Source: Aurantiacibacter spongiae (GTDB lineage: Bacteria; Pseudomonadota; Alphaproteobacteria; Sphingomonadales; Sphingomonadaceae). Taken from it: a stretch of DNA of 64,000 bases. A model generated the notes under the pieces. It was not told the DNA's origin. It saw nothing but the letters and a program-made list of their open reading frames with translations, and searched no databases. The position numbers were made by a program, and so were the translations under genes. This document shows, piece by piece, positions 967 to 13,373 of the stretch (its first letter is position 1; every line of letters begins with the position of its first letter). The stretch spans positions 1,302,001 to 1,366,000 of the forward strand of contig NZ_RPFZ01000001.1 in NCBI RefSeq assembly GCF_003815535.1, in the 5' to 3' direction.

Positions 967-1013
967 TTCTCGTGGGTGTCGTTCTTCGCGCCGAGCAGTG
1001 GAGGGGATCGATC

Positions 1014-1493
1014 ATGCCCAAACGGGTCAAGCCACGTCAGGATCAGAAGGGTCAGAACCTCAGGCCGAACTGGAAGGCAATCTTCCTGGAAACGCTGGCC
1101 GAGACGTCGAACGTCACCCGGGCCGCGCAAGCCTGCAACGCCATGCCGTCCTACGCCTATCGGCACCGGCGGCAGGATCCGGTTTTCCGCCGGCGATGGA
1201 GCGAGGCGCTGCTCGAGGGCTACGAGCACCTCGAACTGGAGACGCTCGAGCGCCTGCGGTTCGGTACCCCGCCGGGCGACAGGAAGTTCGACATCGCCAG
1301 CGCGCTGCGATTGCTGGCCGCCCATCGGGAGGCCGCCGCGCGGGAAAAGGCCCGGCAGAGCAAGCGCGACAGGGCAGTGGTCCTCGCCAGCCTGACGAAG
1401 AAGCTCGAAATGATGCGCGAACGCAAGGTCGCTGCCGAAGAAATGCTCCGCAACGAAGGCGTGATACGGCTCGAAGACCATGCCGCGAAATGA
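1014..1493 (+). CDS. Terminase small-subunit-like protein (GTA g1-like)
   Basis: A 159-residue basic protein. Residues about 25-65 read as a helix-turn-helix of the TerS type (ETSNVTRAAQACNAM, then SYAYRHRRQDPVFRRRW). The rest is strongly helical and charged (AAHREAAAREKARQ). TerS proteins bind DNA and present it to the large terminase. RcGTA has an equivalent first gene. The ATG at 1014 has GAGGGG seven bases upstream; an in-frame extension upstream lacks such a site. Its end overlaps the start of the large terminase by 14 bases, so the two are likely translationally coupled. Confidence 0.7.
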   Translation: MPKRVKPRQDQKGQNLRPNWKAIFLETLAETSNVTRAAQACNAMPSYAYRHRRQDPVFRRRWSEALLEGYEHLELETLERLRFGTPPGDRKFDIASALRLLAAHREAAAREKARQSKRDRAVVLASLTKKLEMMRERKVAAEEMLRNEGVIRLEDHAAK

Positions 1494-2814
1494 TCGCGAC
1501 GCTCTCCTCGCGGGCCTGTGCGCCGGCGAGGCGGGTGGCTTCCTCGCCGGGCTTCGCGAGGATGAGCAGCTCACCCTGCAAGGTCACTGGCCGCTGTGGG
1601 CGCGGGCCGAACAACTGCCGCCCGACGGCGATTGGCGCATATGGCTGATCTGCGCCGGCCGCGGCTTCGGCAAGACCCGCGCGGGCGCGGAATGGGTACG
1701 CCGCATCGCCGAGGACGATCCCGACGCGCGCATAGCGCTGGTCGCCAGCTCGCTTACCGAGGCCCGCGCGGTCATGGTGGAAGGCGAAAGCGGCATCCTG
1801 GCCTGCGACGCCTACGGCGAGGAACCGGTATTCGAACCGTCGCTGCGCCGCGTCACCTGGCCGACGGGCGCGCAGGCCACGCTGTATTCGGCGCACGAGG
1901 CGGATTCGTTACGCGGCCCCCAGCACGGTTACGCATGGTGTGACGAAATAGCCAAATGGGATAATTCCGGTGAGCGGGCAATGACCGCATGGGACAATCT
2001 GCAAATGGGTCTCCGGCTCGGCGAGACGCCGCGAGTTCTGGCGACGACCACCCCCCGCGCCGTGCCCCTCATGCGGCGCCTGATCGACGAAGCGCAGGGC
2101 GATCCCGGCGTGGCTATCACCAGGGGCAGCACCTACGACAACGCGCAGCACCTGCCCGCCCACTACATCGCCGCCATGCGCCGCCAGTATGGCGCGAGCG
2201 CGCTGGGAAGGCAGGAACTGGACGGCGAGCTGCTGACCGATATCGCCGGCGCGCTGTGGTCGCGTTCGCTGATCGAGCGGTCGCGCGAACCGTTCAATAC
2301 GGCGCGGCTGGACCGCGTGGTCGTAGGGGTCGATCCGCCAGTTTCCGCGCGGGGCGACGAATGCGGCATCGTGGTCACGGGCCTGGCCGAGGACGGGCGC
2401 GCGCGCGTGCTCGCCGATGCTTCGATCGCACGGCCCAGCCCCGAGCGCTGGGCCCGCGAGGTCGCCGTGACCGCGCTCGCGTGGAAGGCCGATCGCGTCG
2501 TCGCGGAAGCCAATCAGGGCGGCGCGATGGTGGAAAGCGTCCTGCGCGCCGCCGATTGCGCCATGCCGATCCGGCTGGTTCATGCCAGCACCGGCAAGTC
2601 GGCCCGCGCCGAACCGGTCGCGGCGCTGTACGAGACGGGCCGGGTGCTCCATTCGGGCCAGTTCGCCAAGCTGGAGGATCAGCTGTGCGGCGTCATGTCG
2701 GGCGGCGCCTACGAAGGCCCCGGCCGCAGCCCTGACCGCGCCGACGCGCTGGTCTGGGCGCTGACCGACCTGATGCTGGGCCGCCGCGGAGAGCCGATGG
2801 TGCGGACGTTGTGA
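1480..2814 (+). CDS. Phage/GTA terminase large subunit (g2-like)
   Basis: A 444-residue DNA-packaging motor, full length for GTA TerL. The N-terminal ATPase has a Walker A AGRGFGKTR (59-67), a Walker B with acidic pair in YAWCDEIAKW (D155, E156) and a coupling TTTPR near 180. The C-terminal RNase H-like nuclease keeps its acidic residues: D285 in VVGVDPPVS, E343 in VVAEANQGG, and D419/D422 in RSPDRADAL. It translocates DNA into proheads and cuts it. All key residues are intact although neighbouring genes are broken. The expected next gene, portal, follows only after an antisense lipoprotein gene. Confidence 0.93.
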   Translation: MPRNDRDALLAGLCAGEAGGFLAGLREDEQLTLQGHWPLWARAEQLPPDGDWRIWLICAGRGFGKTRAGAEWVRRIAEDDPDARIALVASSLTEARAVMVEGESGILACDAYGEEPVFEPSLRRVTWPTGAQATLYSAHEADSLRGPQHGYAWCDEIAKWDNSGERAMTAWDNLQMGLRLGETPRVLATTTPRAVPLMRRLIDEAQGDPGVAITRGSTYDNAQHLPAHYIAAMRRQYGASALGRQELDGELLTDIAGALWSRSLIERSREPFNTARLDRVVVGVDPPVSARGDECGIVVTGLAEDGRARVLADASIARPSPERWAREVAVTALAWKADRVVAEANQGGAMVESVLRAADCAMPIRLVHASTGKSARAEPVAALYETGRVLHSGQFAKLEDQLCGVMSGGAYEGPGRSPDRADALVWALTDLMLGRRGEPMVRTL

Positions 2815-2824
2815 AAGGGGAACC

Positions 2825-3340
2825 CTATGGAGCAGAACGAGCCTGCGAAGCGTTCGGGCCGTACGTTATCGCCCCTTCCTCGCCCCGGGCAAGGACTTGC
2901 CAGGACACCACCCGGTCGACCGTCAGCCGGTCGAAATCGGGGTAGGGATCACAAAGACGCCGCCGGCCGACGAAGGTGTTCCTGGTAATCGCGGCACCAT
3001 CGCCGGTGTCCACGTCGCGAAGCCCGGGGCCGGCAAGCTGCGGCAGGTTCTCCCCGAAGCGGAGATGGCTCTCGTCCCAGCCGCCCTTCTGTGACCGGTC
3101 AACGTCTTCGTGAAACTGGTTCCATTCGAAGTCCGTCACCCAAACTCCGGACAGCAGGAGCTGTCTGGAGTGGAGAATGCACGTCTCGAAACGTTCATCC
3201 AGCGACCTGTGGGCATTTTCGTCGAAACAGGCGGAGAAGGCCGCGTCGGCCTTCGCGCAGTCGAGCGGCGCCTCCGATCCACAAGCGGACAGGGCCATCG
3301 CCATCATTCCAGTCGCCAGGACACCACGCAGGGCCGCCAT
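2825..3340 (-). CDS. Predicted lipoprotein inside the GTA-like cluster, antisense
   Basis: A 171-residue protein starting MAALRGVLATGMMAMALSAC, a signal peptide ending in a lipobox (LSAC). The mature part has several cysteines (C-AKADAAFSAC, ETC, RLC) and no family I recognise. The frame is open further upstream but only to a TTG; the ATG at 3340, or the ATGs a few codons later, suit the signal peptide best. It lies on the opposite strand between terminase and portal, filling a gap where GTA genes are normally adjacent. It could be a cargo gene of the element or a later insertion. Function unknown. Confidence 0.6.
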   Translation of the reverse strand: MAALRGVLATGMMAMALSACGSEAPLDCAKADAAFSACFDENAHRSLDERFETCILHSRQLLLSGVWVTDFEWNQFHEDVDRSQKGGWDESHLRFGENLPQLAGPGLRDVDTGDGAAITRNTFVGRRRLCDPYPDFDRLTVDRVVSWQVLARGEEGAITYGPNASQARSAP

Positions 3341-3390
3341 CCCCTTTGGCTCACCAAGGTCCGACCATACCCTCACCTTCGGAGAAACCG

Positions 3391-4559
3391 ATGTCAATTT
3401 TCGACACTTTGCGCACCGCCTTCAAGGGCGGCGGCGCGGTTCGCGCGCCCCTGTCGCGCGGGTTCCAGTCCGCGTGGAGCTGGCAGTACGAGACGGGCGG
3501 GGCGCGGGCGCCGTTCGATTACCGCTCGGCCGTCACCCGCGCCTTCCTGGAGAATCCGGTCGCGCAGCGGGCCGTGCGGATCGTGGCCGAGGGGGTCGGC
3601 AATGCGCCAATCAATTGCCGCGACCCCGGCGCCCTCGCCCTCGTCAGGGCGACGAGTGCCGGGCAGTCGCTGCTCGAAACGCTTGCGGCGCATCTGCTGC
3701 TCCACGGCAACGGCTACGTCCAGATCGCCCGGGGCGGCGACGGACATCCGGCTGAACTGTTCGCCTTGCGGCCCGAGCGTGTCTCGGTGGTGCAGGGAGA
3801 GGACGGCTGGCCGGTTTCCTACCGCTACAAGGTCGGCGACAGCGTCCTCGATCTCCGGTGGAAGATGCCGATGGCTGGCCCGCGCTCATCCATCTCAAGT
3901 CCTTCCACCCGGCGGACGATCATTACGGCGCAGGCTGCCTGTCGGCGGCGGAACAGGCTGTGGGGATCCACAACGCAGCCGCGCAGTGGAACCGCGCCCT
4001 GCTGGAAAACGCGGCCCGGCCCTCGGGTGCGCTGGTCTACGACGGCGGAACCGATACGAGCGGACTGACCGCCGACCAGTTCGAGCGGCTGAAGACGGAA
4101 CTGGCGCAGGCCTACCAGGGCGGCGTCAACGCCGGGCGCCCGATGCTGCTGGAAGGCGGGCTGAAATGGCAAAGCCTGTCATTGTCCCCCGCCGACATGG
4201 ATTTCGCCGAACTGAAGGCCGCCGCCGCGCGCGATATCGCGCTCGCCTTCGGCGTGCCGCCGATGCTGCTCGGCCTGCCGGGCGACAACACCTACGCGAA
4301 CTACCGCGAGGCCAACCGGGCGCTGTGGCGCCTCACCCTGCTGCCGCTGGCGGGCAAGATCCTGTCGGGCCTTTCCCAAGGGCTGTCGCCGTGGTTCGCC
4401 GAACTGGACCTCGCGCTCGATCTCGACCGGGTGCCGGCCCTGTCGGAGGATCGGGAAAAGCTGTGGACCCAGGCGAGCGAGGCAGCCTTCCTCTCCGACG
4501 CGGAGAAGCGGGCCCTGCTCGGGCTCGACGGCGACATCACGAAAGGAACGACGCCATGA
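3391..4559 (+). pseudogene. HK97-type portal protein (GTA g3-like), frameshifted
   Basis: Two frames together give one portal protein. Codons 1-155 from the ATG at 3391 read as a normal N-terminus (WSWQYETGG, FLENPVAQRAVRIVAEGV, LLLHGNGYVQIARG). The match then moves to the frame ending at 4559 (EDADGWPALIHLKSFHP, FGVPPMLLGLPGDNTYANYREA). The shift falls at about 3853-3857, where CTCCGGTG would read L-P-V in frame if it were CTCCCGGTG, so one C appears lost. Repaired, the protein would be 389 residues, the usual portal length. Portals form the dodecameric DNA gateway. The lesion may be genuine or a sequencing error. Confidence 0.85.
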
Positions 4560-4864
4560 TGCGGCAGGACATGCTGGCTGCGCTCATCGACAGCGCGGCG
4601 GCGGGCGGGGCGGACCTCGTTACGCTGCGCGCCATCGTCGAGGAAGCGAGCGAGCTGGGGGCGGAACGCGTGCTCGGCCGCCTCGGCCTAGCCGACGAGA
4701 GCGCGCAGGACGACCTCGACGAATTGCGCGACCTGCTGGGCGCCTGGCGCGCCGCCAAGGCGAGCGCCTGGAAGGCGGTGGTCGAGTGGATCGTGCGCGG
4801 GGCGATGGCCCTTCTGCTGATCGGCATAGCCTTCCGGCTGGGCGTGCCGGGAATGCTGAAATGA
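4556..4864 (+). CDS. Small GTA-cluster membrane protein (g3.5 position, DUF6127-like)
   Basis: A 102-residue protein whose ATG overlaps the portal stop (ATGA). The N-terminal two thirds is acidic and helical (VTLRAIVEEASELGAERVL, QDDLDELRDLLGAWRAAK). A single hydrophobic segment lies near the C-terminus (VRGAMALLLIGIAFRLGV). Small proteins of this shape sit between portal and protease in sphingomonad GTA-like clusters; the DUF6127 label is from memory and unverified. Its stop overlaps the ATG of the protease gene, so translation is coupled across portal, this gene and protease. Function unknown. Confidence 0.7.
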   Translation: MMRQDMLAALIDSAAAGGADLVTLRAIVEEASELGAERVLGRLGLADESAQDDLDELRDLLGAWRAAKASAWKAVVEWIVRGAMALLLIGIAFRLGVPGMLK

Positions 4865-5280
4865 GCGCGTCGGCACCTACGCGCGCCGGGCTGCGCATAG
4901 CCGGATACGCGGCGCTGTTCGGGATCCCAGATGCCGCGCGCGACATCATCGTCCCCGGCGCCTTCGCCCGCACGCTCGCCGCCCGCCATGATCCGGTCCC
5001 GCTCTACTGGCAGCACCGGGCCGAGCAGCGCATCGGCTGGGTCGAACGCATCGCCGAGGATGGGCGCGGCCTTCGCGTCATCGCGCGGATCGACAATCCG
5101 GGCAGCCGTGCGGGGCATGCGCTGCTGGCTCGCCGGGTCGACGGCCTCAGCTTCGGTTACCGCGCCCGCGGATTTCGCCGCACGCCAGCGGGTCGCCTGC
5201 TGGAGGATGTCGACCTGCTGGAGGTCAGCCTCGTCAACCGCCCGCTCCAGCACGGCGCGCGTGTGCATCTGATCCGTTAG
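4861..5280 (+). CDS. HK97-family prohead protease (g4-like)
   Basis: A 139-residue serine protease that trims the scaffold part of the capsid protein during head maturation. The fold signature is present: GYAALFG near the N-terminus, the catalytic His in LYWQHRAEQRIGW (H52), the catalytic Ser in GLSFGYRAR (S97), and the acidic DVDLLEVSLVNRP strand. It starts at an ATG overlapping the preceding stop (ATGA). The frame is open upstream, but that part is a shadow of the preceding gene. The gene appears intact. Confidence 0.88.
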   Translation: MSASAPTRAGLRIAGYAALFGIPDAARDIIVPGAFARTLAARHDPVPLYWQHRAEQRIGWVERIAEDGRGLRVIARIDNPGSRAGHALLARRVDGLSFGYRARGFRRTPAGRLLEDVDLLEVSLVNRPLQHGARVHLIR

Positions 5281-5388: not shown

Positions 5389-6558
5389 ATGGATATCCAG
5401 ATCCAACCCGAAACCGACGCCATGACCTCCAGCTTCGATCTCGTCGCCCGGCAAGACCGGGCCGAACAGGACATCAAGGCGCTCCGCACCGATGTCGACG
5501 AGGTGAAGGCCCGCATCGACCGCGTCAGCAAGGCCGCCGCCCGCCCCGCCATCGGCGACGGCACGGTGTCTGCCGGCAGTCCGGAGATGAAGGGCTTCGT
5601 CGATGGCTATCTGCGCCGGGGCCGGGAAACCGAGATCAAGTCCCTTTCCGGTGCGGTGCCGACCGATGGCGGTTTCGCCGTTCCCCAGGAAATCGACGCG
5701 ATGATCAGCGCCGAACTGAAGGAGATCTCGCCCTTGCGCAATCTCGCGCAGGTCGTGGCCGTCGGCAGTGCCGGTTATCGCAAGCTGGTGGCGACCGGCG
5801 GTACGGCGAGCGGATGGGTCGGCGAGACGGCCCCGCGCCCGGAGACCGACGCGCCCGAATTCACCGAGATCGCTCCGCCCACCGGCGAACTCTATGCCAA
5901 TCCGGCAGCGAGCCAGGGGATGCTGGACGACGCCGCCTTCGACCTCGAGAGCTGGCTGGCGAGCGAGATCGCGATGGAATTCGCCCGCGCCGAGGGGGCG
6001 GCCTTCGTGCGCGGAACGGGGATCGACCAGCCGCTCGGCTTCCTTTCCAGCCCGACCTCGATGGCCGGCGACGCCGTGCGCCCGTTCGGCACCCTGCAAT
6101 ATATCGGTTCGGGCGATCCCGACGGCTTCGATTCCGCGCCGGAATCACGGCTGATCGACCTTGTTCACACGATGAAGGCAGGTCATCGGCAGGGTGCGAG
6201 CTGGGTGATGAACTCGGCGACCTTGTCCGAAGTGCGCAAGCTCAAGACCGCCGATGGCGCGTTCCTGTGGCAGCCGGGGCTGGTGGAAGGCCAGCCCGAT
6301 CGCCTGCTCGGCTATCCGGTGGTCGAGGCCGAGGACATGCCCGACATCGCCGCCGGCACCACGCCCATCGCCTTCGGCAATTTCAAGGCCGGCTACCTGA
6401 TCGCCGAACGCAGCGCGACGCAGATCCTGCGCGATCCCTTCACCAACAAGCCCGCCATCAACCTGGCACCCCAGCGCGGCACGCACGGTCCGGCCATGTT
6501 GCGCCGGTCCTCGCGGCAGGTGGCAAGCGCCGTCGCCCGCGTGATGCGCGACGCCTGA
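5389..6558 (+). CDS. HK97-family major capsid protein (g5-like)
   Basis: A 389-residue capsid protein. The N-terminal 60-80 residues form the expected charged, coiled-coil delta domain (QDIKALRTDVDEVKARIDR), removed by the prohead protease. The HK97 core follows, with GAVPTDGGFAVPQEIDAMI, SGWVGETAPRPETDAPEF and, near the end, GNFKAGYLIAERSATQILRDPF. AAGGAAA lies eight bases before the ATG at 5389. The gene is intact. The next gene begins only 12 bases later and is a tail-tip gene, so the usual connector, tail terminator, tail tube and tape-measure genes are absent. Confidence 0.93.
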   Translation: MDIQIQPETDAMTSSFDLVARQDRAEQDIKALRTDVDEVKARIDRVSKAAARPAIGDGTVSAGSPEMKGFVDGYLRRGRETEIKSLSGAVPTDGGFAVPQEIDAMISAELKEISPLRNLAQVVAVGSAGYRKLVATGGTASGWVGETAPRPETDAPEFTEIAPPTGELYANPAASQGMLDDAAFDLESWLASEIAMEFARAEGAAFVRGTGIDQPLGFLSSPTSMAGDAVRPFGTLQYIGSGDPDGFDSAPESRLIDLVHTMKAGHRQGASWVMNSATLSEVRKLKTADGAFLWQPGLVEGQPDRLLGYPVVEAEDMPDIAAGTTPIAFGNFKAGYLIAERSATQILRDPFTNKPAINLAPQRGTHGPAMLRRSSRQVASAVARVMRDA

Positions 6559-6570
6559 GGACGATCGACG

Positions 6571-8895
6571 ATGGCATACTGGCTCGCCTCCGACCCTGCA
6601 GGGCACGAAACCGATACCATTCAGCGCTTCGACCCGCGTTTCTGGACCATTGATTTTCCGCGCCCGGAAATGGCCACGGTCTTCACCCTCGCACCCGACG
6701 CGCTGCGCGTGACCTGCGACTTTCAGCACCGCGATGCGCTGGTCGGCCTGATCTGGGAAAGCGAGGATCGCTACGATCACCCGTTGCTCGCCTACGAGAG
6801 CGACCGCGACTACGGCTACACCACGCTGTCGTTCGACTGGCAATCCAGCGCCGGCATCCTCCCGCTCGACCGCGTTCACGGCCCGACGCTCACGATCGAG
6901 GGACGCGATGCGGCGGGGGTGCCACGCAGCTGGTACGTGCGGCTGTGGAACTATGCGGCGGGCACGGCTGTCGAAGCGCGCATCACCTTGCCCTTCGACG
7001 ACCTGCGTGACGGATGGGATGGAACCGGCGAGCGCGTCCATCCCCATGACATCGACCGGATGTTCATCTCGCTGGTCCCGCCCGGCTACGATCCGGCCGA
7101 TCATGCGCTGCTGGCGGAACACGGCATCGGCCAGATCACCTTGCGAAACATCCGCTGCGACGGCGATCGCTCGATGCTCGGCGTCGGCGACGTCATGGTT
7201 CCGCCGCACGGTACCGGAATGGCCACCGCCTACGACGACAGCTACAACCTCACGCCAGAGCGTGTGGTGCGCAACATCATGCAGCTCGGCTACCGGGGAC
7301 GGGTCGTCCATTATGTCGGGATGAGCCACTACTTCCAGCTGGTCCACGCGGCGGGCGGGGCGTTGCTGGTCGATCCGGCGGGCACGATCTGCGCACCGTG
7401 CCGGCAATGGCACATGGCCTATTTCGCGTCCTGCAAGGCGGTCGGCCTGCAGCCCGTCGCATCCCTTTCCTACGAACTGTTCGACGCCCATTGTCCCGGG
7501 GACTGGAAGCAGAGAGCGTTCGACGGCAGCCCCGCGCTGACCGGCTGGGAGCCGCCCTCCACGTTGCTGTCCCCCGCCTCCGATGCCGCCATGCGCTGGC
7601 TGCAGGACGTGGCCGCGGGATTTTGCGCGCTGTTCCGTTTGCGCGACGTGCCGGTCGAATTCCAGATCGGCGAGCCGTGGTGGTGGATCGCCCCCGGCGC
7701 AGGCATCTGCCTCTACGATTCCGGCATACGGGCCATCCGTTCGGACACGCCGGAGATCGCTGACCTGATCGCGCCGCTGGAAGTTGCGCAGCGCGACTTT
7801 CTCGACTGGGCGGGCGACATGCTCGGTCGTTCGGTCATCGCCCTGCGCGACCGCGTTCTGACCGAGACGGGCGGCGGGGCGGTGACGCATCTGCTGCTGT
7901 TCACCCCGACCCTTCTCGATCCCGAGCGGCCGGATCTGCGCCGCGCGCTGCTGTCGGACAGATGGCGCTATCCGGCCTTCGACCGGTTGCAGCTGGAGGA
8001 TTACGACTGGCTGACCGGAGGGGCCGAGGCGCTGCGCCGCAACGGGTACGCGGCGATGGACGCGGCGCTCGGCTATCCGGTCGAGAGCCAGGATTACCTT
8101 GCCGGTTTTGTGCTGCGACCCGCGGATGCGGAGCGCTTCTGGCGGTTGATAGACGCAGGGCTGGACGAGGCGACGGCCCGCGGCGTGGGCCGCACCTTCG
8201 TCTGGGCGCTGCCGCAGGTCGCGCGGGACGGATATGTCCGCCTGCCCCTTTCACCGGAGAATCTTGTGAACCCTTTCGACGATGTACTCTATCCGCTCGC
8301 GCTGGGGCGCGATGCCGGGGTAAGCCCCGAATTCTCGACCAGCATCGCCTTGACGGCCTCGGGCCACGAACGGCGCAACAGCCAGTGGAGCGATGCGCGG
8401 CTGCACTACGACGTCGGACCGGGCATCCGCAGCCACGCCGAGCTTGGCATACTGCTCGAATTCTATCGCGCCCGTCGCGGTCCGGCGCGCGGCTTCCGGC
8501 TGGAGGACCCGTTCGACTTCAGTTCCAGCGGGCTGACCGGCACGCCCACGGCGACCGACCAGCTCATCGGCACGAGCGACGGGCTGACGGCCACGTTCCG
8601 ACTCGTCAAATCCTACGGCGGCGGCTCCGAACCGCAGCAGCGCATCATCACCCGCCCCCGCGCAGGCACGATCATCGTCAGCGTCGACGGTACGACCAGC
8701 AGCGCCTGGACGCTGGAAGAGGGCGGCCGGATCGTGTTCCGCGACGCGCCGCCCGCAGGCGCGGCCATCAGGGCGGGTTTCCTGTTCGACGTGCCGGTGC
8801 GCTTTGCCGAGGATCGGCTCGACATCACCGGCGCAACCTTCGCCGCCGGCGAAGCGCCGTCAGTGCCACTGATCGAACTGCGCGAGGCGGTATGA
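6571..8895 (+). CDS. Large tail protein with C-terminal DUF2460 (GTA g12 fused; non-contractile tail-sheath-like)
   Basis: A 774-residue protein, three to four times the length of RcGTA g12. Residues about 566-774 match the DUF2460/TIGR02217 family (NPFDDVLYPLALGRDAG, ELGILLEFYRARRGPARGFRLEDP), which forms the distal tail. Residues 1-150 look like a beta-rich domain (WESEDRYDHPLLAYESDRDYG). The middle, about 200-560, is rich in aromatic residues (VGMSHYF, SLSYELFDAHCPGDWKQRA, EPWWWIAPGAG, LEDYDW) and resembles a TIM-barrel. I recall similar proteins being named non-contractile tail sheath proteins but cannot verify that here. A good internal start precedes the DUF2460 part. It overlaps the next gene by four bases. 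Confidence 0.8.
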   Translation: MAYWLASDPAGHETDTIQRFDPRFWTIDFPRPEMATVFTLAPDALRVTCDFQHRDALVGLIWESEDRYDHPLLAYESDRDYGYTTLSFDWQSSAGILPLDRVHGPTLTIEGRDAAGVPRSWYVRLWNYAAGTAVEARITLPFDDLRDGWDGTGERVHPHDIDRMFISLVPPGYDPADHALLAEHGIGQITLRNIRCDGDRSMLGVGDVMVPPHGTGMATAYDDSYNLTPERVVRNIMQLGYRGRVVHYVGMSHYFQLVHAAGGALLVDPAGTICAPCRQWHMAYFASCKAVGLQPVASLSYELFDAHCPGDWKQRAFDGSPALTGWEPPSTLLSPASDAAMRWLQDVAAGFCALFRLRDVPVEFQIGEPWWWIAPGAGICLYDSGIRAIRSDTPEIADLIAPLEVAQRDFLDWAGDMLGRSVIALRDRVLTETGGGAVTHLLLFTPTLLDPERPDLRRALLSDRWRYPAFDRLQLEDYDWLTGGAEALRRNGYAAMDAALGYPVESQDYLAGFVLRPADAERFWRLIDAGLDEATARGVGRTFVWALPQVARDGYVRLPLSPENLVNPFDDVLYPLALGRDAGVSPEFSTSIALTASGHERRNSQWSDARLHYDVGPGIRSHAELGILLEFYRARRGPARGFRLEDPFDFSSSGLTGTPTATDQLIGTSDGLTATFRLVKSYGGGSEPQQRIITRPRAGTIIVSVDGTTSSAWTLEEGGRIVFRDAPPAGAAIRAGFLFDVPVRFAEDRLDITGATFAAGEAPSVPLIELREAV
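8256..8268 (+). promoter_or_regulatory. Candidate internal ribosome binding site and GTG start for a separate DUF2460 protein
   Basis: Inside the large tail gene, GGAGA at 8256-8260 is followed after five bases by GTG at 8266, in frame at codon 566. Translation from there gives a 209-residue protein beginning at the DUF2460 boundary, about the length of stand-alone RcGTA g12. Ribosome binding sites of this quality are uncommon within coding sequence. Whether it is used is untested. Confidence 0.4.
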
Positions 8896-9713
8896 GTCGG
8901 ACCTTTTTCGCCGGCGAACTGGACAACGTCGCGACGTTCTGGCGGGTCCAGCGGCGTGACGGCGTGCTGTTGGGCTTTACCAGCCACGACCGCGACCTGA
9001 CGACTGGCGGCATCACCTATCGCAGCGCACCGGGCATGGTGCCATCGGCGATTCGCCGCACCGCGGACCTCGACCGCGACAGCGTGGAGGTGCGCGGAGT
9101 ACTCGCCCACGACGCTCTCTCGGCGCAGGATCTGGCCGATGGCCGCTTCGCCGGCGCGCGGATCGCGATCGGCGTGATCGACTGGCAGACTGGCGAAACC
9201 GCCACTCTCTTCCACGGCGAACTGGGAAGCGTAACGCAGGAAGACGGACGCTTCGAAGCGGAATTGCGCTCCGCCAAGGCTAGCCTCGAGGCGGACCTCG
9301 TACCGCGCACCAGCCCGACCTGTCGCGCCGCATTCTGCGACAAGGCGTGCCAGCTGAGCCCGGCGCGCTTCACCCACGCGGCGCGGCTGTCCGGAATAGA
9401 AACGGCCGAAAACCGCGTCCGGTTCGATGTCGCGCCGGATGGCGATGCCATGCTGCACGGGCAGGTACGCTGGATCGACGGGCCTCACGCCGGCCTTGCG
9501 ATGACCGTGCTCGAAGCGGGCGCCGATGGCCTCGTGCTGGACATCCCGCTCGCGGAGACGTTGTCCGCCGGCGTGCATGCGATCCTGCGCGAAGGGTGCG
9601 ACCACACTATCGCAACCTGCGCCGGACGGTTCGGCAACGCCGCCAACTTCCAGGGCGAGCCGTTCCTGCCCGGCAACGATCTGCTCGCGCGCTATCCCGC
9701 GGCGTCGCGATGA
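8892..9713 (+). CDS. DUF2163 tail hub protein (GTA g13-like)
   Basis: A 273-residue protein of the DUF2163/TIGR02218 family. In RcGTA this forms the tail hub between the distal tail and the tip. The N-terminus (ATFWRVQRRDGVLLGFTSHDRDL) and the C-terminal Cys region are typical. Cysteines at C144, C149, C153, C236 and C243 could hold a metal or Fe-S centre; I recall an iron-sulfur cluster in the RcGTA hub, but this is not verified here. The ATG overlaps the previous stop, and its own stop overlaps the next ATG. Intact. Confidence 0.88.
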   Translation: MSRTFFAGELDNVATFWRVQRRDGVLLGFTSHDRDLTTGGITYRSAPGMVPSAIRRTADLDRDSVEVRGVLAHDALSAQDLADGRFAGARIAIGVIDWQTGETATLFHGELGSVTQEDGRFEAELRSAKASLEADLVPRTSPTCRAAFCDKACQLSPARFTHAARLSGIETAENRVRFDVAPDGDAMLHGQVRWIDGPHAGLAMTVLEAGADGLVLDIPLAETLSAGVHAILREGCDHTIATCAGRFGNAANFQGEPFLPGNDLLARYPAASR

Positions 9714-10114
9714 CGCCCGGACCCGAGGCCTTTGCCGAGGCCGCCCGGGGAATGACGGGTGCACCGTTTCGCTGGCTTGGCCGCGACCCTAGGACGGGTC
9801 TCGATTGCCTCGGGCTGGTCGCTGCGTCCCTGACGGCCATCGGGATCGCAGTCCCCCCGCTCCCGCGCTATGCCGCCAGGATCATCGCCATCGACCGCCT
9901 GACCGCGCTCCTGCCGCAGGTGGGTCTCGCCCCCGCGACAGGCCCGGACCGGATTGGCGATGTGCTGCTGCTGCAACCCGGCCCGGCGCAGTATCACCTG
10001 GCGATCCGCGCCTCGCCCGGCACCATCGTTCATGCCCATGCCGGCCTGCGCCGCGTCACCGAGAGCCCCGCGCCCGCGCCCTGGCCGATCGTTGCGCGCT
10101 GGCGCCTTTCCTGA
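9710..10114 (+). CDS. NlpC/P60-family peptidase (GTA g14-like)
   Basis: A 134-residue cysteine peptidase thought to cut peptidoglycan during DNA entry. The catalytic Cys is in TGLDCLGLV (C33). A His in QYHLAI (H96) fits the catalytic His position and a second lies in VHAHAGL (H108). The family normally starts with an APFRWLGRDP-type motif, seen at 18-27. It is translationally coupled to the DUF2163 gene (ATGA). Intact. Confidence 0.85.
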   Translation: MTPGPEAFAEAARGMTGAPFRWLGRDPRTGLDCLGLVAASLTAIGIAVPPLPRYAARIIAIDRLTALLPQVGLAPATGPDRIGDVLLLQPGPAQYHLAIRASPGTIVHAHAGLRRVTESPAPAPWPIVARWRLS

Positions 10115-10133: not shown

Positions 10134-12317
10134 ATGGCTACACTCGTACTCACCGCCGTCGGCACGGCCATCGGCGGTCCGCTCGGCGGGGCGCTCGGTT
10201 CGCTCGTCGGCAGCCGTATAGACGGCGCCCTGTTCGCCCCCGCCGACCGCGAAGGATCGCGTCTTCGCGAACTCGCCGTCACGACGTCGAGCTACGGTTC
10301 TCCCGTTCCACGCCATTTCGGCACCATGCGCGCATCCGGCACGATCATCTGGGCAACCGATCTCGTCGAATCGAGCGAGGAAACGGGCGGAGGCAAGGGC
10401 CGCGGGTCGACCACCACCTACAGCTACTCGATTTCCTTCGCGGTGGCGCTCGCCAGCCGGCCCATCCGCGCGGTGCGCCGCATCTGGGCGGACGGGAACC
10501 TGCTGCGCGGCACCGCGGGCGATCTGAAGGTCGCGGGCACCTTGCGCGTTTACGAAGGTCGCCGCGATCAGCCGGTCGATCCGCTCATCGCCTCGGCCGA
10601 GGGCATATCGTGTCCGGCCTTCCGCGGCCTCGCTTATTGCGTGTTCGAGGATCTGCAGCTGGCGGAATTCGGCAACCGTATACCGGCGCTCACCTTCGAG
10701 ATCGTCGCCGATGACGGTGATGTCAGCCTGGCGCAGATGATCGCCCCCGCGGCTCCGGTCGCTGCGGTGCACCGCGACCTGACCGCGCTCATCGGCTATT
10801 CGGACGAGGGCGGCCCGGTGCTCGGCCTCCTGTCCTCGGTCGACCGGTTGTATCCGATCGCCTGCGACGCGGGCGGCGAAACCCTGGCGATTTCCGACGG
10901 GGCGCCCGAAGGCGGGCCGGTTGCCGCCCTTCCGCCCCCCGTCGTCGATACGACCGGCGACGCCTTTGGCCGCACGCAGGGCCGCAGCATTCAGCTTCGC
11001 GCCGATTCCCGTTCGGTACCGGAGGGATTGCGCTACTACGACATCGCGCGCGACTATCAGCCCGGACTGCAACGCGCCGGCGGACGGGCACGCAGTGGCG
11101 GGCAGCGACTCATCGAATTTCCCGGCGCGCTGCGGGCCTCCGACGCGCAGCGCCTCGCGGATGACGCGGCGCAGCGGGCGGATACGGCGCAGGAGCGGCT
11201 GTCCTGGCGTATCGCCGAACTCGACCCGGCCTTGACCCCCGGCGCGATCGTGGCGGTCCCTGACCGGCCGGGCCGCTGGCGGATCGAGGGCTGGGGATGG
11301 CGCGAAACCGGCGTGGAACTCGATCTGCGCCGGCTTCCATGGCACCGCGCGAAAGCGCGTGCGGTCGATGCGGGACAGGCGCTCGCTCCGCCCGACCTCG
11401 TCGCCACGCCCACCCTGCTCCAGGCCTACGAACTCCCCTAGGACGGCATCGGCAACGCCGCCGACCGCCGTGTCTTTGCCGCGGCGAGCTCGGCCAGCGC
11501 GGGATGGACCGGGGCCGTCCTCTACGCCGAGGAAGGGGGCAGTCTGCGCCCCCTCGGCGCCACCGGGTCGCGCCGCAGCGTGTTCGGCAAGACCCTCGGC
11601 GCCCTGCCGCCCTCCAGCGCGGTGCTGCTCGACCGCCTGGCGGTAATGGAAATCGAACTGGTCGCGGCGGATTTCGCCCTGCGGTCCTGCACGAGCGAGG
11701 ATCTTGCCGGCGGCGCCAATCGCGCGCTTATCGGTGAGGAGGTGATACAATTCCTCGAGGCCGCTCCGCTGGGAGAGCGCCGCTGGAGGCTTTCCGGCCT
11801 GCTTCGCGGTCGCGGCGGAACCGAGCATCGTGCCGTCCTGGGTGCGGACGCCCGGAGCCCTTTCGTGTTGCTCGACGACCGGCCCAATGCCCTCGATCCC
11901 GACATTGTCGGCTCCGCCGGGATGCTGGCCGCCATCGGGCTTGCGGATACTGATCCGGTGCTCGCCCCCATCGCCAATGCGGGCCTGAGCCGGACGCCGC
12001 TGGCCCCGGTTCACCCGCGCCGGTTCCGGCTGCCCGCGGGCGGCATGACGCTCGCCTGGACCCGGCGTGCGCGCGGGGCGTGGCGCTGGACGGACGGCGC
12101 CGACGTCCCCCTCGTCGAGGACAGCGAAAGCTACGAGATCGGCGTGGGCGCGCCGGACCGGCCGGATCTCGGCTGGCAGGTGTCCGAACCCACGCTCGCT
12201 CTGTCCCCAGCTACGCTCGAAAACCTCCGCCGGGATCATTCCGGCAAGCCGCTCTGGGTACGTCAGATCGGCAGCTTCGCGCGTTCGCAACCCCTGCTCC
12301 TTCTCACCATCGATTGA
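10134..12317 (+). pseudogene. GTA host-specificity / tail-tip protein (g15-like) interrupted by an in-frame amber codon
   Basis: One reading frame runs from the ATG at 10134 to the TGA ending at 12317 (728 codons) but has a TAG at 11439-11441, codon 436. Before it are a Gly-rich start (GTAIGGPLGGALGSLVGSRIDG) and a conserved tail-tip body (SYGSPVPRHFG, FAVALASRPIRAVRRIW). After it the same protein continues (DGIGNAADRRVF through LWVRQIGSFARSQP). The codon replaces what is probably a conserved Trp in ELPWDG, so TGG to TAG by one base fits. TAG is a normal stop elsewhere in this window. The product is truncated unless the codon is suppressed or an artefact. Confidence 0.85.
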
Positions 12318-12324
12318 GGCCATC

Positions 12325-12784
12325 ATGACCGATCCCGTCACTTACCAATCCGCTACCGCCCGCCATGCCTTGCCCAACCTGTTCGCGGGGCAGGCGCAGA
12401 AGGAGTTCACGGTCAACGAGGCGCTGGCGCTGATAGACGCCCTGCTGCATCCGGTTATCGAGGGCGAGGCGGATACCCCGCCCACCTCGCCGGAAAACGG
12501 CGAATGCTGGCTGGTAGGGGCCGGCGCGACCGGCGCCTGGATCGGTCGGGACGGCCGCATCGCCTGCCGGCAGGCCGGCACGTGGCTGTTTGCCGCGCCC
12601 GTGACCGGAATGACCGTGCTCGACTTGCAATCGCTGCAGCTCATGCGCTTTGATGGCGACTGGCGCCGCGCCGTCCGCCCCCCCCGCGCCTGCGGGCGGA
12701 GCGGTCGTCGACGCGGAGGCGCGAACGGCGATCGCCGAACTGATCGAGGCCCTCGCCGCGGCTGGCGTCATTCCGCCCGGATGA
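12325..12784 (+). pseudogene. DUF2793 tail-associated protein, frameshifted in a poly-C run
   Basis: From the ATG at 12325 the protein reads as DUF2793, commonly last in sphingomonad GTA clusters: ARHALPNLFAGQAQKEFTVNEALALIDALLHPV, then GECWLVGAGATGAWIG and WLFAAPVTGM. The frame runs into a run of eight C at 12678-12685. With seven C the frame would continue as PPAPAGGAVVDAEARTAIAELIEAL and stop at 12784, giving 152 residues. As sequenced, the frame reads a nonsense Arg-rich tail to 12804. This is either a real slippage mutation or a homopolymer sequencing error. Function is unknown; it is a likely fibre or surface-binding part. Confidence 0.75.
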
Positions 12785-12845
12785 CGGACCCTTTGCGGCC
12801 GTGACCCGTTGGCGGTGGACAGCAGGAACGGAAGGACCCTCCGCC

Positions 12846-13373
12846 ATGAACCGCATGACGCTCGCCCTTGCAGGCCTCGCCGCCGTCTCGACCGCCGGTT
12901 GCCAGACGGCCTACGAGAACACCGCCGACGAGATCGGCACCGCCACCATCGAGAACCGCGCCGGTCAGCAGGTCGGGATCGCCCGTATGTATTCGCTGGG
13001 CGGAGAGGTTACGATGACGGCCTCGTTCAACGGCCTGCCCGACGGTACGCACGCAATTCACCTGCATCAGACGGGCAATTGCAGCGCACAGGATTTCACC
13101 TCCGCCGGCGGCCACCTCAACCCCGGCAACAACCAGCATGGCACCCGCAATCCGCAGGGCGCGCATCTCGGCGACCTTCCCAATTTCGCTGTCGAGAACG
13201 GCGTCGGAACGGTCAGCACGATCCTGCGCGGAACGCGCGACCGGATCGCTCCTGCCATCTTCGACACCGACGGCACCGCCATCGTGGTGCATGAAAGCGA
13301 AGACGACTATCGCACTGATCCCGCCGGGGACGCAGGCAGCCGTATCGCCTGCGGCGTGGTGCGGCGCGGTTAG
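12846..13373 (+). CDS. sodC: Copper-zinc superoxide dismutase, exported
   Basis: A 175-residue exported Cu,Zn superoxide dismutase that removes superoxide in the periplasm. The N-terminus MNRMTLALAGLAAVSTAGC is a signal peptide, probably a lipoprotein type with Cys19. All metal ligands are present: H72 and H74 (HLHQTGNC), H90 (GGHLNP), H98 (NQHG), H107 and D110 (AHLGDLPN), and H149 (VVHE). The disulfide pair is C79 and C169. AAGGAC lies upstream of the ATG at 12846. It follows the degraded GTA cluster on the same strand but has no apparent link to it. It converges with queC. Confidence 0.93.
   Translation: MNRMTLALAGLAAVSTAGCQTAYENTADEIGTATIENRAGQQVGIARMYSLGGEVTMTASFNGLPDGTHAIHLHQTGNCSAQDFTSAGGHLNPGNNQHGTRNPQGAHLGDLPNFAVENGVGTVSTILRGTRDRIAPAIFDTDGTAIVVHESEDDYRTDPAGDAGSRIACGVVRRG

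Follow-up and report, generated by a model that had tools for sequence, protein, structure and literature searches.

A very probably decayed RcGTA-like head-tail cluster in Aurantiacibacter spongiae, its capsid gene joined in frame to the end of its tape measure gene

The window analysed here, a stretch of 64,000 nucleotides from the genome of Aurantiacibacter spongiae, contains a head-tail cluster like that of RcGTA (Rhodobacter capsulatus), and we are highly confident that this cluster is decayed: a single deletion of about 2.7 to 3.0 kb is very likely to have run from the capsid gene into the tape measure gene g11, leaving a wreck that stays open as one ORF of 389 amino acids. The deletion would have joined codon 355 of the capsid to the final 34 codons of the tape measure gene, and would have taken out g6, a g7-like gene, g8, g9, g10, g10.1 and most of g11. 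As far as can be judged from sequence, the cluster can very probably no longer make working particles.

The comparison with loci of the same genus reveals that the ORF at 5389-6558 is a chimaera, in which residues 1 to 355 are capsid and residues 356 to 389 are the C-terminus of g11. In each of 20 same-genus loci, the match to this ORF splits in two: its front falls on the capsid gene, reaching residue 359 in 17 loci and residue 370 in three, and its end falls on a second place, about 2.5 to 3 kb downstream and directly before g12, which is the 3' end of g11. A letter-by-letter comparison puts the junction between P355 and A356, at positions 6453/6454 of the window, give or take a few bases. 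The capsids of the relatives end with ...FTNKPFVHFYATKRVGGQVLDSSAIKLLKIEA or close to it, their g11 proteins end like ...VSINLAAPRGTDAPVMLRRSSRQVASAVARAMREG, and the window reads ...FTNKP up to the junction, followed by AINLAPQRGTHGPAMLRRSSRQVASAVARVMRDA. The join is in frame and yields a single open 'capsid', without the last 27 or so codons present in the capsids of relatives; in one of these (L042), the residues at the lost end can be aligned with the RcGTA capsid as far as its residue 384 (of 385-386). Modelling of the chimaera with AlphaFold gave a mean pLDDT of 40, a confidence too low to speak either way.

An earlier note on this DNA had placed the end of the capsid at 6558 and the break in the interval 6559-6570. 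An ORF with strong capsid homology does end at 6558, but its capsid part stops at 6453, and the coordinates given for the break were wrong, since the lesion is the one at 6453/6454, inside the ORF that had been taken for the capsid. The DUF2460-bearing gene does start 12 bases after 6558, at 6571, as the note had it. The special meaning attached to this short gap was dropped: the gap between g11 and g12 is 12 bases in, for example, L027, L028, L030, L031, L033, L034 and L037, and 13 bases in L042, and is thus the normal spacer of the relatives.

The extent of the loss can be read from intact clusters. Between capsid and g12, all 20 same-genus loci have g6, g8, g9, g10, g10.1 and g11, and 17 of them have a gene of the size of g7; set against these relatives, the window is missing g6, the g7-like gene, g8, g9, g10, g10.1 (about 65 aa) and all of g11 but its end. 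The points equivalent to the junction lie 2739 to 3017 bp apart, with a mean of 2888, in the 17 of the 20 loci that could be measured, the motif having missed the other three, and we infer that the window lost its 2.7 to 3.0 kb in one event. Among 80 loci with g12 taken from named genomes (the best 80 of 322), 72 hold both capsid and g12. In 71 of these, still among the best 80 of 322, g6, g8, g9, g10 and g11 are all kept and the distance from the capsid match to g12 is 2413 to 3497 bp; the sole exception is L061, a MAG locus (G022) with a deletion of its own. The synteny comparison that the earlier note had proposed thus finds the full block nearly everywhere, and the absence of g6 to g11 that it reported stands in part: no neck gene, no tail-tube gene and no complete tape measure gene lies here, but the C-terminal stump of g11 does.

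Table 1. Features of the cluster in the window (positions of the window), and loci with the terL-DUF2793 scar
Feature	Position or loci	Strand	Basis or remark
Small terminase (g1-like)	972..1493	+	PHROG terminase small subunit E=2.5e-9; homologue at same place in relatives
Large terminase g2 (terL), open	1480..2814	+	Pfam Terminase_6N/6C; 61-75% identical in 20 same-genus loci
Portal g3, two frames near 3858	3391..4559	+	Pfam portal positions 1-124 in one frame, 116-321 in the other
Small conserved gene, portal-protease interval	4556..4864	+	tblastn match in 20/20 same-genus loci
Prohead protease g4, open	4861..5280	+	Pfam Peptidase_S78 E=2.6e-21
Capsid g5, codons 1-355	5389..6453	+	Pfam Phage_capsid E=8.4e-77; alignments
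Deletion junction, about 2.7-3.0 kb gone, in frame	6453..6454	+	Locus comparison
g11, last 34 codons and stop	6454..6558	+	g11 profile E=5.6e-12 at 6289-6552; locus comparison
Ordinary g11-g12 spacer	6559..6570	.	12 or 13 bases likewise in several relatives
g12 homologue, 774 aa, NCTSP_N + TIM barrel + DUF2460, open	6571..8895	+	Pfam; relatives
g13, open	8892..9713	+	Pfam Phage_phiJL001_Gp84_N, Phage_BR0599
g14, NlpC/P60, open	9710..10114	+	Pfam
g15, interrupted by TAG at 11439-11441	10134..12317	+	Phage-tail_3
Presumed DUF2793 gene, frame change in eight-C run 12678-12685	12325..12804	+	Comparison with relatives
Scar loci, same genus	L163-L166, L170, L173
Scar loci, family	L184, L185, L187-L189, L191-L195, L198, L200-L203, L205

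The cluster carries further damage, summarized in Table 1. The portal is a single ORF of 384 to 394 amino acids in all 20 relatives; g15, where the relatives have it complete, is 724 to 727 amino acids long, with a sense codon at the position of the window's TAG; and the gene at 12325..12804, which we take to be the DUF2793 gene, has 150 to 152 amino acids in relatives with complete genes and a different C-terminus in the window. The three lesions mentioned in the earlier note are therefore all in the sequence: the portal and DUF2793 are frameshifted, and g15 has a stop. The DUF2793 frameshift could be a sequencing error, since it lies in a run of eight Cs. Between terL and portal sits a minus-strand lipoprotein-like ORF (2825-3397), which we dropped as a candidate lesion, because L031, L032 and L041, three of the 20 relatives, have a homologue at the same place. 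The g12 gene is 59 to 67% identical within the genus and has NCTSP_N and TIM-barrel parts before DUF2460; its full length of 774 amino acids is matched in most same-genus clusters, so that this form is normal there. Our literature search found no paper on NCTSP and TIM barrel together. At the other end, a gene that we take to be SODC-like (12846-13373, plus strand) adjoins the cluster, as it does in many relatives.

The window lies in a contig of 2.85 Mb, in a genome of 2.86 Mb that is 99.97% complete, which leaves the question of whether the missing genes are elsewhere in it. We searched with profiles of five genes, g6, g8, g9, g10 and g11, each made from 12 relatives. In the genome of the window, g9 and g8 have no match at E<=0.01, g6 has none at E<=0.1, and PF06199, which matches three of 14 control genomes, Caulobacter included, has none at E<=10. 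The g10 profile gives one weak stray, at E=0.042, in a frame of 1113 amino acids, with a similar match in G037, and the g11 profile finds only its own C-terminal stretch within the chimaeric ORF (E=5.6e-12). The same profiles work on other genomes: g9 and g8 each match in 24 of 40 same-genus genomes, with best E-values of 1.5e-36 or better, and, in six genomes tried, g6 is strong in three and g10 in three. In the 40 genomes, g12 is found in 26 and g9 in 24 of those 26; g12 without g9 occurs only in the genome of the window and in G037, whose contigs end inside the block.

These results bear on the split layout considered in the earlier note, with tail genes elsewhere, and on the possibility that a cluster whose neck and tail genes lie apart from it is functional. 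The genome search that the note called for, run for g6 and g8 to g11, returned the stump of g11 and the weak g10-like stray, and the stray is all that speaks for such a layout; with g6, g8 and g9 without a match in so complete a genome, the end of g11 still in place as a stump, and both portal and g15 broken, we hold it to be extremely unlikely. An error of assembly, with the block present in the DNA but lost through a false join, we consider very improbable. It is true that the DUF2793 lesion sits in a run of Cs, but the contig is long, g6, g8 and g9 are on no other contig, the cluster has independent lesions, and internal deletions are found here in other genomes of the genus too; relatives, judged by eye, also have no shared repeat at the two ends, an observation that led us to drop a repeat-driven origin of the deletion as well.

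There is, finally, the thought that the fusion of capsid and g11 has been retained as a functional gene with a different role, such as that of forming a tailless shell. In favour of this are the in-frame join, the open state of several genes of the cluster, and the branch ratio given below, which shows no acceleration of rate; yet an in-frame join has one chance in three, the deleted end of the capsid is conserved as far as RcGTA, and portal and g15 are broken, so that we give this reading hardly any credence. Decay, which the earlier note had suggested, is the reading supported by the in-frame deletion together with the lesions of portal, g15 and DUF2793. In RcGTA, according to the available text of PMC7296036, the portal bears a dodecamer of the g6 adaptor; next come the g7 stopper, the g8 terminator and the tail tube, and a g11 trimer lies inside. 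Since neither adaptor nor terminator nor tail tube was found in the genome, and portal and g15 are both broken, assembly of a tailed particle is not to be expected.

The decay looks recent. In a tree of nine GTA blocks, the end branch of the window exceeds, by a factor of 1.97, the branch that it has in the tree built from four flanking host proteins, and this ratio is within the range of 0.64 to 5.26 seen in 25 relatives, the GTA tree leaving out G024, G027 and G028, which have 1200 or fewer residues. As a counterpoint to decay, the fused ORF, g2, g4, g12, g13 and g14 are all open, which need not be so in a long-dead cluster.

By descent, the cluster is of the RcGTA-like head-tail kind, as it has homologues of the head-tail genes in RcGTA order: terL, portal, protease, capsid, (g6-g11) and g12 to g15, of the same families. 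The capsid of the relative L042 matches the solved RcGTA capsid (6tb9/6tba) at E=6e-85. The window differs from RcGTA in the deletion of g6 to g10.1 and most of g11, in the fusion of capsid to the end of g11, in the broken portal and g15, and in the extra N-terminal NCTSP and TIM-barrel parts of g12, which its relatives share. Intact clusters, such as those of A. zhengii (L055), A. odishensis (L062) and Citromicrobium sp. JLT1363 (L123), have the same gene order as the window, and intact clusters of the Aurantiacibacter/Erythrobacteraceae type keep g6, g8, g9, g10 and g11, which the window does not. Intact Aurantiacibacter clusters also have the flanks of the window, presumably a DedA-like gene on one side and queC, hslO, argF and argD on the other. 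These flanking genes are common to the same-genus loci and mark a conserved chromosomal site, in keeping with vertical inheritance. Of 23 splits, 14 are common to the GTA tree and the host tree; none of the host splits with support of at least 95 is contradicted, and four GTA splits with support of at least 95 are absent from the host tree. The genus-wide site and the agreement of the trees argue against an ordinary prophage remnant.

Pseudogenised GTAs are already known. In the available text of PMC10883770, pseudogenisation or loss is described for several alphaproteobacterial lineages, seen as possible cheaters, and a complete GTA is one with 14 of 17 head-tail genes. The window falls short of this number: from g2-g6 and g8-g15, g10.1 included, there remain g2, g3, g4, g5, g12 to g15 and the stump of g11, several of them broken. 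Complete clusters are described in Citromicrobium, and the amino-acid make-up typical of GTAs in connection with GTA-Hunter, in the accessible portions of PMC3338782 and PMC6821227, respectively. The window resembles the pseudogenised GTAs of PMC10883770 in having a cluster that very probably no longer works, and the text available from that paper gives neither a chimaera of capsid and tape measure nor a recurrent exact scar. The window is thus a new specimen of a known kind, with an unusual in-frame chimaera. It offers a readable intermediate in GTA loss, in which the ends of the deletion are exact, the chimaera is in frame and further lesions lie nearby, and a survey based on capsids would score this genome as GTA-positive, since the fused ORF is full-sized (389 amino acids against about 380).

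Damaged clusters are frequent in the genus. Neither capsid nor g12 is found in 14 of the 40 genomes. In six of these 14, at the site of the cluster, terL breaks off near codon 152 and continues in DUF2793 near codon 20, nearly all of terL being gone as well in one of the six (G019). Two (G027, G028) have the protease joined to DUF2793, two (G024, G031) have other internal deletions, the contig ends at the site in three more, and G021 has kept nothing of the cluster; the SODC-like gene remains at its site, without anything else searched for between DedA and queC. A parallel to the window in kind is the MAG G022 (DAICXZ010000020.1; L047/L061), of the same genus, which has its own in-frame capsid deletion chimaera: capsid residue 246 or so is fused to g8 residue 41 or so, so that the end points differ from those of the window, and g9 to g11 are kept, with a stop in g11 and a frameshift in g13. 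In A. xanthus (G037; L048 and L049), terS continues near residue 124 directly into the portal near residue 7, and terL seems to be lost. Internal GTA deletions are thus common in this genus, and the deletion in the window looks like an ordinary instance of them, with end points unlike those of the terL-DUF2793 scar.

That scar is not confined to the genus. Of 298 genomes sampled from the family, terL is present in 235, and we examined 30 of the 40 whose best E-value was above 1e-75: 16 have the terL-DUF2793 junction and 11 have other states. The scar from terL codon 152 or so to DUF2793 codon 20 or so is thus present in 22 genomes, six of the genus and 16 of the family. The family name DUF2793 follows PMC10883770, as far as its accessible text goes. 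Two loci (L171 in G027 and L172 in G028) show a second type of scar, from the protease to the same point of DUF2793. Measured from the left-hand QH codon to the right-hand QxQKE codon, 22 of the 24 scars span 22 bases (20 of 22 of the terL type and both of the protease type), and those of G111 and G267 span 23. The cross-over point moves by a few bases between scars with the register unchanged, and the DUF2793 frame is open for at least 128 codons in 23 of the 24. Our literature searches, with subscription papers mostly outside their reach, did not find the scar in print.

Whether the scar arose once or many times was studied on a tree of terL stumps (79 rows, 141 columns, quick method), in which 24 rows are deleted: five of the genus, 16 of the family, and G140, G178 and G270. 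The deleted genomes are scattered over this tree. The deleted label takes 21 changes, at least nine of them forced by well-supported branches, and real labels need no fewer changes than shuffled ones, whose mean is 20.4. The closest terL is an undeleted one for 20 of the 24 stumps, undeleted rows being the more numerous, which favours such matches; it is a deleted one for G298, G328, G267 and G111. In the host tree, the deleted genomes G012, G025 and G004 stand beside the undeleted G032, G026 and G008, with support of 100 each. The simplest reading is that of independent exact deletions, and its main rival is a single old deletion spread through gene exchange, with cross-overs near the scar. 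Against an exchange from outside the clade, the sequence of G012 is of its own clade's type right up to the junction. In deleted-undeleted pairs, DNA identity has no consistent fall towards the scar, although two of eight pairs have a last block that is nearer to a different deleted genome.

The dN/dS of the stumps is 0.09 to 0.21 between deleted pairs and 0.06 to 0.21 between undeleted pairs, low values that point to stumps that are young or kept. We tentatively suggest, as a possibility that we would not yet favour, that GTA loss in the Sphingomonadaceae may not be random decay only, and that a nucleotide-precise mechanism may have repeatedly cut out the stretch from terL codon 152 or so to DUF2793 codon 20 or so, with the scar always in a single register and the stump left open and constrained. 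Site-specific recombination or an extreme deletion hot spot would be candidates for such cutting. Exact losses of this kind, if true, would give GTA producers a permanent way of becoming non-producers, and a recurrent exact scar, if confirmed, would make the passage from one to the other directly testable. Three genomes touch the same points in other ways. In G140 (L190), terL has the end point of the scar and is joined to g10. In G178 (L186/L245) and G270 (L197/L243), the left and right scar points coincide with contig ends, so that a repeat may sit there.
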